From Phorcus lineatus (Eukaryota > Mollusca > Gastropoda > Trochida > Trochidae): 64,000 bases of DNA. The stretch is taken from assembly GCA_921293015.1 (NCBI GenBank), contig OV121090.1, positions 4,030,001 to 4,094,000 of the forward strand, written 5' to 3'. Under the pieces are notes generated by a model that worked only from the letters and a program-made list of their open reading frames with translations, was not told the DNA's origin and made no database searches. Shown here piece after piece: positions 33,964 to 52,505 of the stretch. The translations under genes were made by a program, and so were the position numbers. Position 1 is the first letter of the stretch, and every line of letters begins with the position of its first letter.

Positions 33964-35312
33964 ATTAATCTACTTGTTGACAAGATTGAAAAAATCATTG
34001 ACGACATATCATCTGCATCCTCAGCTCATGATCCTCTTGAATATAATGTTAAATTTAAAGGCTCTTGCATGTCCAACTTCGAACCAGTATCAAAACCCTC
34101 CTTGTTATCAGTGTTGCAGACAGCACCAAATAAGTCTTGTTCCCTGGACCCCACCCCAACTTGGTTGCTTAAAAGTTGTCTCCCCTCCATTGTCTCGGCT
34201 GCCTGCTCAGTCACGAACGCATCTCTGGAAGCTGGAACTTTTCCACAATGTTTCAAGAACGCTATTGTGACCCCGCTACTTAAGAAACCATCTCTAGATC
34301 CCTCTGACTTCCGGAACCTTAGACCTGTGTCCAATCTCAGCTTCCTGTCCAAAGTCATGGAGAAAATAGTGCTCGCTTAGCTTCAGTTTCACATAGAAGA
34401 GTACAGCACCGAGACTGCCTTGATTAGAGTCCAGAATGACATTTTACGAGCAATGGACAGACAGGAGGTGGTCCTACTTGTGCTACTAGATCTTTCTGCA
34501 GCCTTCGATTCTATCATTCAAATTCATGATGCAGAACTAACCATTGATGGCATTTGTGTCACTCCATCTAGAAATATCAGGAACCTCGATCTGACAATGA
34601 ACAACACAATGTCAAGCAAGCAACATGCCCTCAACACAGCCAGATCAACTAACTTTCATATTTCAAACATTGGGAAAATCCGGAAGTATATTGACAGTGA
34701 TACTTGTAAAACTCTTATCCACTCATATGTCACATCCAGACTCGATTTCTGCAATGCCCTACTCTCCGGATCAGGCCCCATCTCACAATTACAGCGCATA
34801 CAGAACAAGGCGGTACGCTTGGTGACTCGGACAAGACAGGATGCTCACATAACCCCAGTTCTCCAGCAACTACACTGGCTCCCCATTAAGCACAGGATTT
34901 CTTACAAGATCCTTGTCTTGACCTTCTGTGCTCTCCATGTTGACTCGTCTCCTATGTACATGAAAAAACTGCTGTCTATATATCAGCCCTGCCGATCTCT
35001 ACGATCGTCAAATGAAGCACAACTGTGTGTCCCATCAACCTCTACTAAACTTGGTGAAGGAGCCACCTCTGTTGCTGCCCCTGTCTTATGGAACTCTCTC
35101 CCACATGACCTCAAAACCTCTGGATCACTGGACTGTTTCAAGAAAGACTTAAAAACCTACCTTTTTTCTCTCCTGTAAACCCTACCTCTTTCTATCCTGT
35201 AAACCCTACTTTTCTCTATCTCTGTATATACTTCCACTTTTTCTTCTCCAGCGCCGTTGAGCAGCTCTTGCTGGAAACAAGGCGCTATACAAGTTATTAT
35301 TATTATTATTAT
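33964..35312 (+). mobile_element. CR1/L2-type LINE, dead copy with deletions inside reverse transcriptase
   Basis: One + strand frame can be followed from 33964 to the stop at 35178. First comes the N-terminal side of the reverse transcriptase (SCSLDPTPTWLLKSCLPSI, then FKNAIVTPLLKKPSLDPSDF, then RNLRPVSNLSFLSKVMEKI). A TAG at 34378-34380 replaces a probable CAG codon. The frame resumes with STETALIRVQNDILRAMDRQ and VVLLVLLDLSAAFDSI, the first catalytic Asp region. It then jumps to IQIHDAELTIDGI, so roughly 150 residues including the YxDD/FADD catalytic motif are missing. The C-terminal region (SRLDFCNALLSG, LQRIQNKAVRLV, LHWLPIKHRISYKI, WNSLPHDLK) is intact. The untranslated end has a hairpin-like GCGCTATACAAG word followed by an ATT repeat (35295-35312), as in L2/CR1 elements. 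The copy cannot move on its own. Confidence 0.88.
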
Positions 35313-36607: not shown

Positions 36608-36911
36608 GGGGGCGGGATGGCGCAGTAGTTAGCGCGTTCGGCTTCGGATCAAGACGTCCGTGGTTCGAATCCCGCCAGGGGCTCGGCAACTTTGTATGCA
36701 GCAGAGAACTGTCAGAACACGCAGTCAGGTTTGGGTGCACTTCTACACTGAATTTTAGAACAGTACCACCCATGGTTCGCAAGTTCCAGCCGATGCTCGC
36801 AGGTTTCACCGCAATGCATTGGCACAATGGTGTTGCGGGCTTTCTCCCTGCAATAATACCAACAGCCGCGATATAAGTGAAATAATCTTGAAAGCGGTGT
36901 TAACTCACCTC
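36608..36911 (+). mobile_element. tRNA-derived SINE (family 1), full-length copy
   Basis: The head (about 36608-36676) has an A box in GGATGGCGCAGTAGTTAGCG and a B box in GTGGTTCGAATCCCGCC, the bipartite internal promoter of a tRNA-derived SINE. An anticodon-loop-like CTTCGGA hints at an Arg(TCG) ancestor. The body contains AGGGGCTCGGCAAC, CAGTCAGGTTTGGGTGCA and GGTGTTGCGGGCTTTCTCCC. The 3' tail is GAAAGCGGTGTTAACTCACC. The flanks TTTTAACAGTTG and TTTTCACCGTTG match at 10 of 12 bases, a plausible target duplication. Non-coding; it is the reference copy for the other family-1 copies in the window. Confidence 0.88.
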
Positions 36912-44681: not shown

Positions 44682-45505
44682 GCGGAACCCCTGAACCCTC
44701 CGATTTTTTTTCTGGTGATCGCTTTGTGTGGTGAATATTGTCAGTATATTCAAACTTCTACTTTTGACGGGTTTCGAAAACTTTTTTCCCATTATTAAGC
44801 TCATTTCCGAGTTACAAAAACTGGACATGTTCTTCTGATTTCAGAAATTATGCCAACGCCAGAAGGCTCTGGATGTCATTGATTGGCCGGATAGACGTCG
44901 ACAACGCCTATTGTCTGTCCTCACACTTCCCCAGCAGAAGGTGGTGGAGAGGACATCATTTCATGTAAAATGTTGCAATTATGAAAAGCTAGCATTATTT
45001 AAGTCGAGGGAAAGTTACTGAGTTTAATCAATGATTAATCTTCAGTTTCTTTTAAACATATGCATGTCTTGAGTGCAGTTAATATCTGGATATATATAGT
45101 TTGTGGAGAAAAAACAACATTGACTATTTAAAACTGTAGGAAAGCAACAGACATATTAATGATTAAAATGAAATTGTTGCTAAAATTCAGCGGAAATGCA
45201 AATGATTAATAGTTGCGGAAATGCAATGGAAACATTCAGGATTAAAGGTTGCGGAAATGCAACGGAAAAGTTAAGTATACGTATTTGCGGAAATACAGTG
45301 GATATCATGAGGATTTTATTGTGTTGCATTTCCATTTGCGGAAACCGTGCAGAAAGTAGGTAACTGAAACTGGACGGAAACTTTCCGGATAGTGTGTCAT
45401 TATGCATTTCCGCACTTGCAGAAATTAACATGAAATGTGCGGAAACATAACTGAAACTAACAGTAAAAATTTCCGGATTGCGGAAATGAAGTTATTTTTG
45501 CTGTG

Positions 45506-45829: not shown

Positions 45830-46070
45830 CGATTTCCACGCCCAACTTAATGCTGATGGGACAAATGGCCGCCCGTCACATTGACCTTACGGGGTGTGTG
45901 GCCGCAGCGACAGATCTCATTGGTTGCAAGAACGGAGAATTAGAGTTCTCGGTAACCTAGCATTTAGCCTGTTACACGCCCCATCATGCTTAGCGGCATC
46001 CGCACGCTCGCAGTGTATTGGGCCTGTCACCCACTGTCCAATGGACTCTCGCATAGAGCCAAATTCAAGA
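45830..46070 (+). promoter_or_regulatory. candidate TATA-less, CCAAT-type promoter of the SANT-DUF6589-like gene
   Basis: This stretch is clearly richer in GC and CpG than its surroundings. It has inverted or direct CCAAT boxes at 45919-45923 (ATTGG), 46017-46021 (ATTGG) and 46038-46042 (CCAAT), and ends in CAAGATGGCGGAG at 46067. An AAGATGGCGG word at the start codon is a known downstream promoter element (YY1-type) of animal genes. No TATA box is seen at a fitting distance. The assignment depends on exon 1 being real. Confidence 0.5.
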
Positions 46071-46091
46071 TGGCGGAGAGCATAAACTCGG
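46071..46091 (+). CDS. predicted exon 1 (start codon, seven residues)
   Basis: ATGGCGGAGAGCATAAACTCG is followed by a GTATGT donor. The start lies in a CAAGATGG context and the phase-0 join to 47261 keeps one open frame into the SANT-like exon. The exon is very short, so the support is the donor, the frame and the promoter-like context rather than similarity. Confidence 0.55.
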
Positions 46092-46228
46092 TATGTATCC
46101 AATGTAAACAAAGGTCCCACATTTTTATTATTGGTGACATAGGCCCAGAATTTACACCAACGATGTCCCTTGACGCACACAATTCAAAGATGTTCACATA
46201 TTTCGCTACAAAATCGTATTTTCTTGTT

Positions 46229-46473
46229 AAATCCAACTTTCATGATAGCGCTATAGTGGATGCATCCGATCACCAGCGTTATTGTAGGGCTAAGAACGAA
46301 GAAAGTGCTATATCGTTCAAAGTAAAGTGTTGTTGTCGCTGAAATTAGGTCTAAATATTCCTTACACCCTATCGACTTCATGATTGTTTCCTTTTTTTCC
46401 ACACAAAAAAATTTAGGCCGACAGTCAGTAATTCAGTCCACCGCAAGATTCACGATTAACTTGAATGAATGAA
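46229..46473. repeat. left arm of a 245-bp inverted repeat (in intron 1)
   Basis: From AAATCCAACTTTCATGATAG to TTGAATGAATGAA this matches, inverted, 51721-51966 with only a modest number of differences. It lies just inside exon 1, with the CpG-richer promoter outside it. As the other arm is 3' of the gene, the pair could be terminal or subterminal repeats of a transposon that contains the gene. Confidence 0.9.
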
Positions 46474-47260
46474 GAATTTGGATTACATATTTTTAGAGTA
46501 TTTTTTTCTTTGTAGTTATTTATTTTGCAAATATATTTTGGTAAAATACCCAGTAGTTCTTAATGGACATTGAAAATCTTCACTCTATCCAAATTATATT
46601 AAACAAATTTAAGAAAAAATCCTTATCGAAGCGCTCATAAAATACACAAAAACAACAAATTATTAAACATTTTGTCTCTATATAGAAGTTGATTACAGTA
46701 TTTATGGATTTCTTTCGTTAAAAAACAGATGCACACTTACTCAAGGAAGGTGGACATGATGCCTTCCTTAATAGAGTTTAGATCCCATGATCATTCCTAT
46801 GGAAAAAAGAGGCAGAGTCAAGAACCTACAGGTCTTACTCCAGAGTCCAAAAGAGTTGATTTGGTAATTCAATAGATTCTGTTTGCCATAGCTTATAATA
46901 ATTATTGTTCCCTCATAATGAAAATTGACAGGCCTGAATTACAAAGTCCTCAAAGGATCTGCTGGTTGTTACAATATCTTAATATATGCAAAGGCAATGC
47001 ATTCTTAGTTTTCAAGTGACTTTGTTCAAGTATTATCAATTCTTTACTTTCCTTTATTATTTTGCAAGGTTTGTAACTACATGAGACATGTTTAAATATA
47101 TATGGAATGGCAGGTTCTGTCATAAGGAATGGATATATATATATATATGTATATATTTATCTTGATTTTCTTCAACAAACTTGTGACTAAAGCATCTTGA
47201 CTTTCTTCAACAAATGTTTTTTTCTATAATATTTATATATGTAAATATGTTACTTTACAG

Positions 47261-47435
47261 GGAAGAAAGCAACAGAACAGATCTTCAGACCACTGCCATT
47301 TGAAAACAAAATGGAGTGCAGAAGAAAAGAGTTTCCTTTTTCAGAGAGTAAATTCCACCAAAGCTGTACATTCCCTCGGATTTTGGAAAAATTGTTCAGA
47401 GTTGTTAAAGGAGAAGTTTGGGGGTGCACGCACAG
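47261..47435 (+). CDS. exon 2, SANT/Myb-like DNA-binding domain
   Basis: The acceptor is TACTTTACAG and the donor CACAG|GTAGAG. It encodes GRKQQNRSSDHCHLK and then the SANT-like helix segments with spaced aromatic residues (KWSAEE, FLFQRV, FWKNC, LLKEKFGG). Such domains bind DNA; in Harbinger-type systems a Myb-like protein guides the transposase to the ends. Here the domain is at the N terminus of the same predicted polypeptide. Confidence 0.7.
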
Positions 47436-47789
47436 GTAGAGCTGTGGTTATTTATATTTAATGCCAAATTTTCATCAGGCAAAAAGCAATTTAAAAGAGA
47501 GGAAAATGAGGACTGATGAAATCAAGGTTTCAAGATTACGTAATTTCTCCTATTCTTAAATACTTATAAACAAATTAATATTAATCATATTTTTTTATCA
47601 TAATCATAAGAATTTAAAACACAATTATAACCAAAAGTCACATAGAATTAATTTGTAAGGTTAGAACATGTCAGAATTTATGAATTATCAGAATTATGTT
47701 ATTTGGCTAAAGCTTAAGGACTGATTGATGCTGATATTGATAACCATCCGAAAGCAAGTAAGTTAAGCAAGTCACATAATATGTTGCAG

Positions 47790-47907
47790 GTCCAATGTGC
47801 CGAATGTTACATAAGAGACAGCTTCAGGAGGGGGGAAAAGTCCAGAACAAAGCAACTAATGATGTCAGTGTCCAGACAGAACCTGCCATTCCTGTGCTTG
47901 ATTTTGC
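47790..47907 (+). CDS. exon 3, linker
   Basis: The acceptor is ATGTTGCAG and the donor TTTTGC|GTGAGT. The reading is PMCRMLHKRQLQEGGK, then VQNKATNDVSVQTEPAIPVL. It completes the SANT-like domain (P-M-C-R-M) and starts a polar linker. Phases 1 in and 2 out fit both neighbours. Confidence 0.7.
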
Positions 47908-48634
47908 GTGAGTTAACAACCATGTAGAGTTTTTAGAATTATTTATATAAGGAATTTCAAAATCATATAAAATATGAACTAAGATGAAAGTTAGATGAAT
48001 CCACTTTTAAACTTTTTTTTTTTTTTAAGAGGCCAAACCTTACATGTATATATAAGATTTTGTAATGTACAACTGATATTTTGTGATAACATTTAATTGT
48101 TGTGTCACTCAGAACTATTGCAATAAGATAATGTTTTGCCCTCTATTTAAGCTTTCTGTAATTTGATCATGGGCATTTTTTTTACTGTTTTAAAAAGTCT
48201 TTATCATTGAATTTGAATGGTTTTGTTTCAAAAGATAAACTAAGTTTGCTGTAAGTTGAGAGTCCCTTATGATTCAATGTAATGAGATTTATTACATTGA
48301 GCTCCTGTCCTACCAAAATATTACTGCCATGCATGGAATGTACTGCATTCCTAACTTGAAAGCTTAGGATAGATTTTGTCATAGCAGCTATAATGATTTT
48401 GCTACTAAAACTTTCAAAATATAGAACATTACTTAAAGAAAGAAAAAAAAGAGCCATGGACTCATTAGCTTTTATATAGTTAATGTTCAAAAGTAAGATA
48501 CATACTCTTCCAGGTGAAATACAACACCACCCTGCCATATCCATATTTAAACAAATTTAACACCAAAGTTAACAATTTGGTCTGCATGTCATAGTAATAT
48601 TGAAACTCATAATAAATTTTCAAAAATGTTTCAG

Positions 48635-49175
48635 TCCAAAAGATGAAAGTCAGGTAATAAAAAGCACTCAGGTTTCACGAGAGGTCTCACAAAGTAAAGA
48701 TCAGCTGGCAGCACTATCAACTGAGCAGGAGGATTCTTTGTTGGAAGAGAAAGAAAGATCAAAATTGTTAACACTTCTTCTAAACTCCTCAGATGTTACT
48801 ACTTTTGCAAAAGGCATTTTTGATTGTAAATCTTTGAAGGGGAAGATTTGGGAATTGTTTTTGGGTGTAATTAATGAGGATGCAAATTCACTTAAAGAGA
48901 GGAGATCAAGTTACCTTTTTCATGGGGATTTTGAAAATTTAACTGAATTCAATTGGGATGGTGTAATTGACGAAATGTGCTCCCAGCAAAGGTTTCTCAC
49001 TATGGTGCTGTTAGCTGTTCTGACAACCAAAAGCTCATCTTCCGACAAAATGGTGGCCTGGGTAAAACCACTCTCCATGGTGTATGGGATCCTCATGAAA
49101 AATAGGATTAAGGAATGTTCTAGACTCCAAAGAGTCCTTTCATTGCTCCTTGCAAAAGAACAAGTGCATCAAAAG
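48635..49175 (+). CDS. exon 4, unrecognised central region
   Basis: The acceptor is AATGTTTCAG and the donor CAAAAG|GTATGT. It encodes 180 residues, starting with a charged, serine-rich part (PKDESQVIKSTQVSREVSQS) and continuing with an alpha-helical-looking, leucine-rich part (MVLLAVLTTKSSSSDKMVAW, RLQRVLSLLLAKEQVHQK). The last segment is characteristic of the same protein family in other invertebrates, as I recall. No catalytic motif lies here. Confidence 0.72.
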
Positions 49176-49881
49176 GTATGTGAATTACTGTAAGCTATTC
49201 TGTAAGTGAAGTTATTGAATTTGAGTTCTAGTTAACTGTTCTTATTATTTCCAATCACATAAAATCAATATCAGAGTGTGATGAATCAATGTTTTATTTC
49301 ATAATATGAGAAACAAAATAACAATAATTACCAAGTAGTTTAATCAATTGAACATATGCAATGACATTAACAAAATGGACATATAGAACGCAAAAGAACT
49401 GAAAAATGAGAATTAATGACATGTCTTAAAATTTTAATTCATAACGAATGTGCAATTAATTTTTAATTAATTTGGTTAATGAGATTTAAACAGGATGATT
49501 TAAAGATGATTTGTTCCAGTTGGTGTTCCTTCTTGTTACCTGCAATCATTTCATACATTGTCTCGTGTGTTTATGTGAGGAGCTTTTGTGGTAATTTAAA
49601 ATTACATTTGCCCTCATATAAATAAATGGGATATGATTTATCACAAATTGATGGCTGTTGATGTTCTTCATGAAGATTGCCAAATGCAAAAGATTGATGT
49701 AATTTGGTGAGACAATAATTACTATACAATTACTTGATGCTGTAAGTAACAGTTTATCTTAATTATGAATCATAAACAGTGTATAAAACATTAATTCAAA
49801 TGTTTCAATAAAAGAATAACGCATTTCTGAAAATAAAACATAAAATTATGACAAAAACTTAATGATTATTACACATTTCAG

Positions 49882-51011
49882 ATTTATGATCAACTTCAAC
49901 CACTTGGGATTTGCCTCTCGCACAACGTCACCTCCCGAGTTCTAAACCACATTGATGGATATTTTAACACAGAACTTGTACAAACATTAAAGGAAGGAAA
50001 GAAGTTTAGAATTATTGGTGACAATGAAAATTTTATGATTGATGTAAGTAATGTAAGAAAAATCAGTTGCAAAAAAAGCACATATGGAACATTGGTTTGC
50101 CTCAGCTGCAATTGTGCAGAATGTTAGCTTTAACCATCTTTCTGCCTCAACTCCAAGGTGTTCGTTGTTCGTGTTCGTTGAATTCATTTTCGAGTGACCA
50201 GTTGATGATGCAAAATGGGGATTGGGAAGTCATTAAAAGTGATTATGTTGTTTTGATTTCTCGGGTTCTGTGCAAATTCATGCCATGTTTTCAACAATTC
50301 AAAAAGTGTATTCCAAAATACATAAAAAGGGACATGACAGACACACTCAATGAAAAGAATAAGGTTATCCCCTTACCAGTTTTGGCGAAAAATGAACAGA
50401 AATATACAGATGTCATGGACATTTTGGACCATTACGAGTCTGTCATTGCACAAGTTTATGATAGGTCAGACAGGTCACTTGACAATGAAACAATGGTTCA
50501 CATTGGGGGTGATCAATTGACTAGGGAAAGATTCTCTGGGGCCAAAAGATTAAGGGCCATGGCAGACAGTGATGCTGATAGATATAGCCATTTGTCTCCT
50601 ATAAGTTTTGAATTTTTCCATCTTCAGATGAAATTTCTGTCAACGATGTATAAACACTTGTACAATGATAAAAGCACAGAGCCAGGTACTCTGAATGTAG
50701 AAAAACCAAGACTTGACAGATCAAAAGCAGAGGGCAATGATGTTAAAAATCATTATGAAGATTGTAAGGAATTAGCAGTTTCCTTTATTGATAGTTATAT
50801 TGTTGAGGCAGCTCAAAAATATTTTGGAATGGAATCATGTGAAAGTATTCCAAAGAAAAACTGTGAAATGTTTTCAGAATGTGATGATATGGAAGAGAAA
50901 AGTAAGTCACTTTCAAAGACCATTGCAAGAATGGTTGATGAGATGGTGTTGACAAAAACAAAATTGTCCTTATCAGAAAATAATGAAGTTTCAAAATCAT
51001 TTAAACTGTAA
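49882..51011 (+). pseudogene. exon 5, DUF6589-like core with two apparent +1 frame changes
   Basis: The acceptor is ACACATTTCAG. The frame runs from IYDQLQPLGICLSHNVTSRV to VSNVRKISCKK. It must then shift by one base at the A7 run (50071-50077) to read HMEHWFASAAIVQNVSFNHL, and by one more base at the TGTTCG-rich stretch (about 50159-50185) to read DQLMMQNGDWEVIKSDYVV to the TAA at 51009-51011. Removing one base at each place restores a continuous frame that agrees with the family pattern. Both places are a homopolymer or short tandem repeat, where slippage or sequencing error is common. The C-terminal ~100 residues are polar and less distinctive. Confidence 0.65.
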
Positions 51012-51720
51012 CTTGCTTTGATTGATTTTTCTATTCTGAAAAATAACAAACTTTCACAATTTAATCTCTCAACCTGTCAGAACAAAACTGTTGAAATTAT
51101 TACTTACTGCTATTTCTTTTGCAATTTGCGGATAAAAAGGATTTTGTGCTGTTAACAATCTTCATCTCTCAATGAAAACATCAAATTTGAATAAGTTTAC
51201 TTACGTAATTCGTTAAAAAAGAGCCTTACCTCATTCATTAACGCTGAGTTTCCATTCTCCAGTTGTTCCATAAGTTTGATCAGTTCTATATCGCTGAAAC
51301 ATTTACATTGGACAAAATATAATACAACAATAAACATTTTCAATCTAAGATTTTTTAAATTTTGGATTATGACAGTTAACAATCATCAAGAATAATGAAT
51401 AATTCCCATAATCACACAGAATAATTCTTAATTCTCACCATATAATATTGTCTTCGTTGTAGTCATGCTCTACGATGCAGTGATCATCTAATTGTGCCAT
51501 TCTTTCCTTATAGTGAATCACCTTTTTCACAAACGATAAGAAAAATACATGCTATTCAGAACAATGTTTTTAACTTATAAGGGCATCAAACAGAAAAAAA
51601 TCGAATTAACTTGTTAATGTTATTAATGTGTATGTTTATTACAGCATTTCACACGTTAATAAAATACATTTCTTCTGCTACATAAAGAAGCCAAATATTC
51701 TGAGGGCAGAGCGAAATTGT
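51012..51720. other. 3' flank of the SANT-DUF6589-like gene
   Basis: Non-coding and AT-rich. A candidate poly(A) signal AATAAA stands at 51329-51334, some 318 bases after the stop codon. Nothing else was recognised before the right arm of the inverted repeat. Confidence 0.45.
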
Positions 51721-51966
51721 TTCATTCATTCACGTTAATCGTGAATCTTGCGGTGGACTGAATTACTGACTGCCGGCCTAAATGTTTCTTTGTGGGAAAA
51801 AAAGGACACAGTCATGAAGTTGATAGGGTGTAAGGAATATTTAGACCTAATTTCAGCGACAACAACACTTTAGTTTGAACGATGTAGCACTTTCTTCGTT
51901 CTTAGCCCTACAATAACGCTGGTGATCGGATGAATCCACTATAGCGCTATCATGAAAGTTGGATTT
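51721..51966. repeat. right arm of the 245-bp inverted repeat
   Basis: This is the reverse complement of 46229-46473 and ends in GAAAGTTGGATTT. Immediately outside it begins a truncated family-2 SINE-like unit (CAATTATTGAACACGTGG), so any longer outer part of this arm, such as a second copy of the promoter region, has been lost. No target duplication can be read across the two arms. Confidence 0.9.
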
Positions 51967-52505
51967 CAATTATTGAACACGTGGATGACAAGCATCCAAA
52001 AGAGAGTGGACAGATCAGGGAGAAAGGGATCGAAAGGATGAGGAAACAGAGGGAGTGAGTGGGTTGGGGTTTAACGTGCTTTGAACAATATTTCAGTTAT
52101 TAAGCACGTGGATGACAAGCATCCAAAAGAGAGTGGACAGACAAGGGAGAAAGGGATCGAAAGACTGAGGTAAAAGACGGAAAAGAAAGACATAGGGAAA
52201 GATAGACAACAGGACTCAAATTTAGTCTGGCTTCTACCCGTCGACCTGTCCAGCTTGGGTGTCCCTACAAGGAGCATGAAAGCTCCAGCTGGCATAGCTC
52301 TTGGGGTCTCTGAAGCACGCAAACCACCACACCACGTTAAGGTATCGAGTCCAGTGGTGGGAAAAAGAAGGAAAGAAAGGCATAGTGTGAGAGATAGAAT
52401 GGAAGTTTTAGAAGGACTCAAATTTGGCCTGACCACTACCAGGAGCAGCATGTAGGGTCTTAGAAGCACGCAAAACGCGATTTAAGGTATCGAGTCCAGT
52501 GGTGG
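51967..52505 (-). mobile_element. SINE-like family 2: three adjoining copies, one near-complete
   Basis: A fragment (51967-52050) is followed by a near-full unit (52053-52360) and a third, internally shortened copy (52361-52505). The full unit, read on the - strand, runs from CCACCACTGGACTCGATACC, through GTGGTGGTTTGCGTGC, GAGCTATGCCAGCTGGAGC, CAGGTCGACGGGTAGAAGCC and GTCCACTCTCTTTTGGATGC, to GAAATATTGTTCAAAGCACG and the tail TTAAACCCCAACCCACTCAC. The tail is the same type as that of the LINE at 33105, which sets the orientation. No convincing polymerase III promoter was found at the 5' end. Confidence 0.75.

Follow-up and report, generated by a model that had tools for sequence, protein, structure and literature searches.

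A dead DUF6589 element in Phorcus lineatus and its probable place among helicase-bearing AcademH transposons

What is a gene of a protein family without an assigned function doing between two inverted repeats in a gastropod genome? The question is raised by the window analysed here, a stretch of 64,000 nucleotides of Phorcus lineatus (Trochidae; NCBI GenBank assembly GCA_921293015.1, contig OV121090.1, forward-strand positions 4,030,001 to 4,094,000), in which positions 46071-51966 hold a gene resembling the Pfam family DUF6589 together with an inverted repeat of 245 bp. The initial annotation, made from the sequence alone, had proposed an undescribed DNA transposon for this locus. Comparison with the rest of the 958-Mb genome, which all genome-wide searches reported below covered, leads us to conclude with considerable confidence that the element in the window is the dead remnant of a DNA transposon of the AcademH type, with the DUF6589 protein as its probable transposase.

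Paired termini, target duplications and empty sites

The inverted repeat itself (46229-46473 and 51721-51966) proved to be real, since a self-comparison of the window recovers it as two blocks, one of 172 nt with 97% and one of 82 nt with 93% identity, and in the genome-wide search the two arms are 95% identical over 245 bases (E 7e-106). This search returned ten matches to the arm, namely both window arms, inverted pairs on C7, C11 and C19 (C and L numbers are our labels for sequences and loci), a single arm on C5 and a 74-base fragment on C19. The arm is present at five loci and is paired at three besides the window; pairs around other copies of the gene, on which the initial annotation had made the transposon reading depend, are found at these three loci. 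The copies on C7 (30396160-30407992; 11,833 bases) and C11 (25702555-25714357; 11,803 bases) are 99.6% identical, and each has two arms of a 514-base terminal inverted repeat (TIR) that are identical to one another. The C19 copy (38903366-38917581) measures 14,216 bases, its left arm being interrupted by an insertion of about 0.5 kb, and a copy on C2 represents a second family with a TIR of 474 bp. The fuller relatives of the window element are 10.7-11.8 kb long, or 14.2 kb in a third with extra insertions, and their TIRs measure about 470-514 bp.

A search for termini and target duplications in the other copies, as proposed in the initial annotation, gave TIR ends accompanied by target site duplications (TSDs) in four of them: GATGTTTGA (9 bp) on C7, CTGGAATCCC (10 bp) on C11, ATTAGAACCC (10 bp) on C19 and TGAGAACTG (9 bp) on C2. 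These are four of the seven loci of the clade whose ends were inspected, the window and C5 copies having lost one end and the flanks on C29 being themselves an inverted duplication. When the flanks of the C11 copy are joined with one copy of the target, the sequence is matched end to end on C9 at 89%. For the C19 copy, 40 of 2252 candidate places were scored, and in every one of these the match crosses the junction at 95-98%; in 36 it is complete from end to end, and in the other 4 it reaches base 222. Six empty sites were read base by base. Four of them, of which one belongs to C11 and three to C19, have a single, unchanged target; the other two, which are more diverged relatives of the C11 site, contain the target with changes. 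Because the empty sites carry the target once, the 10-bp duplication of the C11 and C19 copies arises from insertion.

These observations bear on the simplest alternative, in which a host gene merely has an unrelated inverted repeat, one arm in intron 1 and the other downstream. In its favour, the window gene does contain introns, and the window copy, deprived of its right end, shows no visible TSD; against it, the gene is accompanied by the arms at scattered places in the genome where TSDs and empty sites are found, and the window gene is frame-broken and truncated, which makes a host gene hardly conceivable here. For the family, the empty sites rule such a reading out.

The third family was encountered on C29 (11086600-11106400; L063, L061, L020, L060 and L062), where its DUF6589-helicase element is centred in an inverted duplication whose arms, at least 6.4 kb long, are 99.98% alike within the sequence compared; the palindrome is either real or an artefact of assembly.

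The DUF6589 protein and its helicase neighbour

The resemblance to DUF6589 was confirmed by a match of PF20231 to window positions 50052-51008 (E 8e-28), which covers profile positions 9-249 of 410 only, and the C11 copy has a 623-aa open reading frame (ORF) with a full-length match to the same Pfam family (E 1e-49). In a 15-row alignment of relatives, numbered after the C11 ORF, four acidic residues do not vary in any row covering their position, namely D57 (9/9, in GDN), D216 (10/10, in GGD), D503 (12/12) and E507 (12/12), and three further positions are always acidic with D and E varying (D119, E221 and E302). These counts omit rows gapped at a column and take in only columns with nine letters or more; two of the rows are fragments of L026 and two are fragments of L028, and there are two pairs of near copies, L023/L025 and L032/L034. 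The two aspartates that had been put forward as possibly catalytic, in IIGDN and GGDQL, are the first two of this set and are invariant among the relatives covering them. The spacing is 158 residues from D57 to D216 and 290 from D216 to E507, and in some families a zinc-finger-like insertion lies between the second and the third acid (C2H2-like in L022 and L023, PHD-like in L030, all below the Pfam cut-offs). With D57, D216, D503 and E507 the protein has the three invariant acids expected of a DDE transposase, and the pattern D, D, D/E suggests such a transposase with a large insertion. L030 (1219-4191; C29:30.22 Mb) is a 991-aa DUF6589 ORF in which the PHD-like fingers follow the second conserved Asp and precede the conserved Glu.

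The SANT/Myb label given to the head of the protein was not confirmed, as no Pfam family matched any of three versions of the head at E ≤ 10; a short conserved head was nevertheless found in six of the seven element copies searched. The proposal that the DUF6589 gene encodes the transposase of a DNA transposon is strongly supported by the paired arms, the 9-10-bp TSDs, the empty sites and the invariant D, D, D/E, and we regard DUF6589 as the probable transposase and putative catalyst of the element. A literature search found no publication naming DUF6589, and the string PF20231 turned up only in four papers that are off-topic by title and abstract. Such a role for DUF6589 is apparently not in print within the literature searched, and it may be that the AcademH paper has these proteins under a different name. 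Viral contigs queried with one intact protein, two small alignments and one distant protein gave no DUF6589 relative.

The second gene of the element lies on the opposite strand of the C11 copy, tail to tail with the DUF6589 ORF, and has a DEAD helicase domain (E 9e-22); its nearest relatives in the PDB are RECQ5, BLM and WRN, which identifies it as RecQ-type. A second ORF on the same strand has a weak RecQ zinc-binding match below the cut-off. Outside its TIRs the C11 copy has 27 ORFs with a length of 62 aa or more; five are, or lie within, the DUF6589 and helicase ORFs, two were left out, and the 20 others, scanned for Pfam, gave no family above the cut-off. Genome-wide, at least 65 DUF6589 matches group into 52 loci (same strand, gaps <6 kb), and at 29 of these the helicase lies no more than 15 kb away, in 28 cases tail to tail, compared with a chance expectation of about 0.06 if placement is assumed to be uniform; seen from the other side, 29 of the 38 listed helicase loci lie within 15 kb of DUF6589. 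Both lists are lower bounds, and the 29 paired loci are not independent events, some being near-identical copies, but the pairing also occurs in families whose DUF6589 is only ~25% identical to that of C11. L030 is the sole listed DUF6589 locus whose nearby helicase is not tail to tail.

In the mechanism that we propose, the DUF6589 protein, acting as a DDE-type transposase, would cut at the TIR ends and would join the cut ends to staggered cuts in the target, producing the 9-10-bp duplications. The RecQ-type helicase would presumably open or process DNA in excision or integration, and each TIR would probably provide a promoter, a start codon and a first small exon to the gene facing it.

The helicase also brings to mind a Kolobok element of the KolobokH kind, since KolobokH has a RecQ helicase and one Kolobok of a red alga carries a RecQ helicase on the complementary strand, according to the relevant passages of one source (PMC9587614). 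The same passages describe Kolobok TSDs as the 4-bp TTAA and report KolobokH from fungi only, against TSDs of 9-10 bp without TTAA here. We consider this reading extremely improbable; for the four scored copies the length of the TSDs and the lack of TTAA rule it out.

Gene starts in the TIRs and decay of the window copy

Three families have the 10-mer AAGATGGCGG inside their TIRs, facing inward, and behind it come a short open exon and then a splice donor: ATGGCGGAGAGCATCAACTCG with GTATGT in C7 and C11, ATGGCGGACGAG with GTAGGT in C2, and ATGGCGGACCAT with GTAAGT in C29. The exact 10-mer is present in 11 of 12 arms (that of C5 has one substitution), and ATG and donor are both kept in 11 of 12 (the right arm of C19 has lost the donor). 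In 194 kb, 14 sites of the 10-mer are listed, the window's being counted twice and two lying close to where the C25 duplicates described below have their 3' end, compared with 0.37 expected under a uniform distribution. Between the TIR of C2 and those of the window's family blastn gives no match at E ≤ 1e-5, but the outermost ~45 TIR bases are common to C2 and C29, so the three families are not fully independent cases. A phase-0 acceptor precedes the helicase frame in C11 and C2 and the transposase head exon in the window, so that both genes could start with the same TIR exon.

From this arrangement of sequence signals we consider it an even bet that the TIRs are twin gene-start cassettes in addition to being the ends that the transposase binds. 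Each would comprise an initiator (the CAAGATGGCGG motif, which we take to be YY1-like), an ATG, an exon of 4-7 codons and a donor, and the convergent transposase and helicase genes would share the TIR exon (MAESINS, MADE or MADH). A YY1 site is described as setting the start of human L1 transcription (PMC9148063). If the cassette is true, the lineage that uses DUF6589 as its transposase would have promoter, start codon and mobility signal combined in one piece of DNA.

In MuDR the genes are convergent and start at the TIRs. A MuDR/Mutator-like element, with long TIRs, TSDs of ~9 bp and this gene arrangement, would agree with the TSD length and the long TIRs observed, and relatives of MuDR are described with TSDs of 4-10 bp (PMC10045372). 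The presence of a helicase speaks against it, as does the lack of a MULE domain in the DUF6589 and helicase ORFs (E ≤ 0.5) and in the 20 further ORFs (E ≤ 0.1), which leaves room for a very distant kinship; a MuDR-like element is in our view very unlikely, if slightly less so than KolobokH or a host gene.

The anatomy of the fuller copies can be traced in part in the window. The left TIR, with the terminus TAGCCTGTT, spans 45965-46473 on the forward strand (509 bases), homology to the C7 and C11 copies beginning at 45965. The initial annotation had suspected that its arms were the inner parts of longer repeats, and rightly so, for the left TIR is ~509 bp long and the right arm (51721-51966, reverse strand) corresponds to TIR positions 265-509 only, its outer half being lost, as self-comparison and comparison with other copies agree. 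The predicted first coding exon (46070-46090, forward strand; ATG...TCG, coding for MAESINS, with the donor GTATGT behind it) is placed over the CAAGATGGCGG motif, is the same in other copies and lies within this TIR, and the promoter is probably inside it too. Exon 1 and promoter had been thought to lie outside the left arm, which was the main objection raised against a transposon; with a TIR of ~509 bp that objection is removed.

Downstream on the same strand follow a predicted head exon (47261-47435), at least 80% conserved in C5, C7, C11 and C19 and 40% in C2, and a predicted exon upstream of the DUF6589 domain (48635-49175, splice sites read from the sequence), whose protein is 78% identical in C7, C11 and C19 and 33% in C2. 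The large DUF6589 exon (49882-50980, forward strand) contains the codons of the first and second conserved Asp at 50020-50022 (D57, GDN) and 50511-50513 (D216, GGD), both positions being read from the sequence, and comparison with C11 shows it to be broken and deprived of its 3' part. Relative to C11 it has one additional base at ~50071 and 13 additional bases at 50158-50170, and its resemblance to the gene is lost after ~50980, where ~3.4 kb are absent that in C11 hold D503, E507, both helicase ORFs and the 3' end of the gene. Block matches to C11 identify 50977-51133 as a remnant between two deletions, after which a further ~0.4 kb are absent. The right arm is truncated, as had been suggested, stopping at 51966, and a dispersed repeat (51967-52268), which may be the SINE proposed in the initial annotation and of which the window has copies at 52054 and 53023 and C5 several, starts at the next base and replaces the outer half of the right TIR. 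The window copy is dead, as is evident from its broken frame, from the ~3.4-kb deletion that took the putative catalytic Glu and the helicase gene, and from the truncation of the right TIR at 51966; of the five-exon gene predicted earlier, the DUF6589 exon is indeed present, whereas the gene as such is not intact.

Other features of the window include degenerate tandem units of 36 bases (GTTGCGGAAATGCAACGG...) at 45176-45268, just left of the element, a 265-aa ORF at 34381-35178, which by its look we take to be a fragment of a LINE reverse transcriptase, and a tRNA-like match at 36611-36677 that falls exactly at the Rfam gathering score (29 bits, E 0.06); ARAGORN found no tRNA in the window.

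Relation to AcademH and other transposons

AcademH was reportedly described by Kojima in 2020 (Mob DNA 11:15). AcademX, whose nuclease is XPG-like, was also considered for the present element and was rejected, as XPG_I occurs at five places, none of them within 4 Mb of a DUF6589 locus, and the TSDs are 9-10 bp long. For AcademH, TSDs of 9 or 10 bp are given, and for AcademX 3 or 4 bp, a difference related there to the encoded helicase and nuclease (PMC10045372). The elements studied here have a helicase, TSDs of 9, 10, 10 and 9 bp at four of seven loci, and TIRs that move with the genes as a unit. Since the helicase and the 9-10-bp TSDs are both found, membership in AcademH is probable, the label 'undescribed' is probably wrong, and the element is probably a new member of a described but little-studied group.

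The elements might instead form an undescribed superfamily of their own, consisting of DNA transposons with a helicase whose likeness to AcademH would be limited to that helicase and the TSD length. The silence of the literature on DUF6589, with PF20231 confined to off-topic papers, would fit such a superfamily, as would the fact that the likeness to AcademH was drawn from descriptions and not from sequences; on the other side, both distinguishing marks of AcademH are present, and Academ is listed among the richest DDE groups in bivalves (PMC10294476). We consider a separate superfamily unlikely, though it is the most serious competitor of the AcademH assignment.

Several observations weigh against an AcademH element with a DUF6589 transposase. 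The assignment rests on anatomy, AcademH having been compared by description, and not on transposase homology. The TSDs are drawn from four of the seven loci of a single clade, and in the genome search the joined flanks of the C7 and C2 copies gave no spanning empty site. A profile comparison of the DUF6589 alignment with the PDB gave 0 matches at E ≤ 10, and the sole fold model, computed for the window's 279-aa piece without an alignment, has a pLDDT of 36. In the list of loci, 23 of the 52 with DUF6589, the window's included, have no helicase within 15 kb, and two of these 23 (L034 and L036) do show helicase-like sequence on direct comparison. Two locus pairs of a more distant DUF6589 clade, finally, showed no recognisable terminus and no TSD. 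In the pair C7:47.03 and C17:35.43 the likeness ends at a point without a recognisable terminus, whereas in the pair on C25 (32.57 and 44.71 Mb) the likeness extends over the full 3.5 kb compared on the 5' side and on the 3' side ends together with a high-copy repeat. The 3' end of these C25 duplicates (L069 1357-1606; L070 and L071) is shared at ~84% with that repeat (40 of 1332 candidates scored), two copies of which, when examined, had no inverted ends and no target duplication.

If DUF6589 is the transposase of a helicase-bearing transposon, as appears likely, a Pfam family named as of unknown function gains a probable function, and genes annotated as DUF6589 become recognisable as transposon genes. 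The fuller, recently moved copies, among them the two of 11.8 kb with 99.6% identity, are material for the question of why a transposon carries a RecQ helicase.

Among known systems, KolobokH shares with the present element a RecQ helicase within a TIR transposon and differs in its 4-bp TTAA duplications, as given in the source cited above, as against 9-10 bp here. MuDR and the MULEs have the long TIRs and the TSDs of ~9 bp in common with it, and differ in that the element described here has a helicase and that no MULE domain was found in the ORFs scanned. AcademX would belong to the same superfamily, but has, in the passages on the Academ groups, a nuclease and 3-4-bp TSDs in place of a helicase and 9-10-bp TSDs. 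With AcademH, compared by description, the element has both its own helicase and TSDs of 9-10 bp in common, and no difference was found; the ATG and splice donor seen here in each TIR go unmentioned in the AcademH passages of the two descriptions consulted (PMC10045372, PMC10799480).

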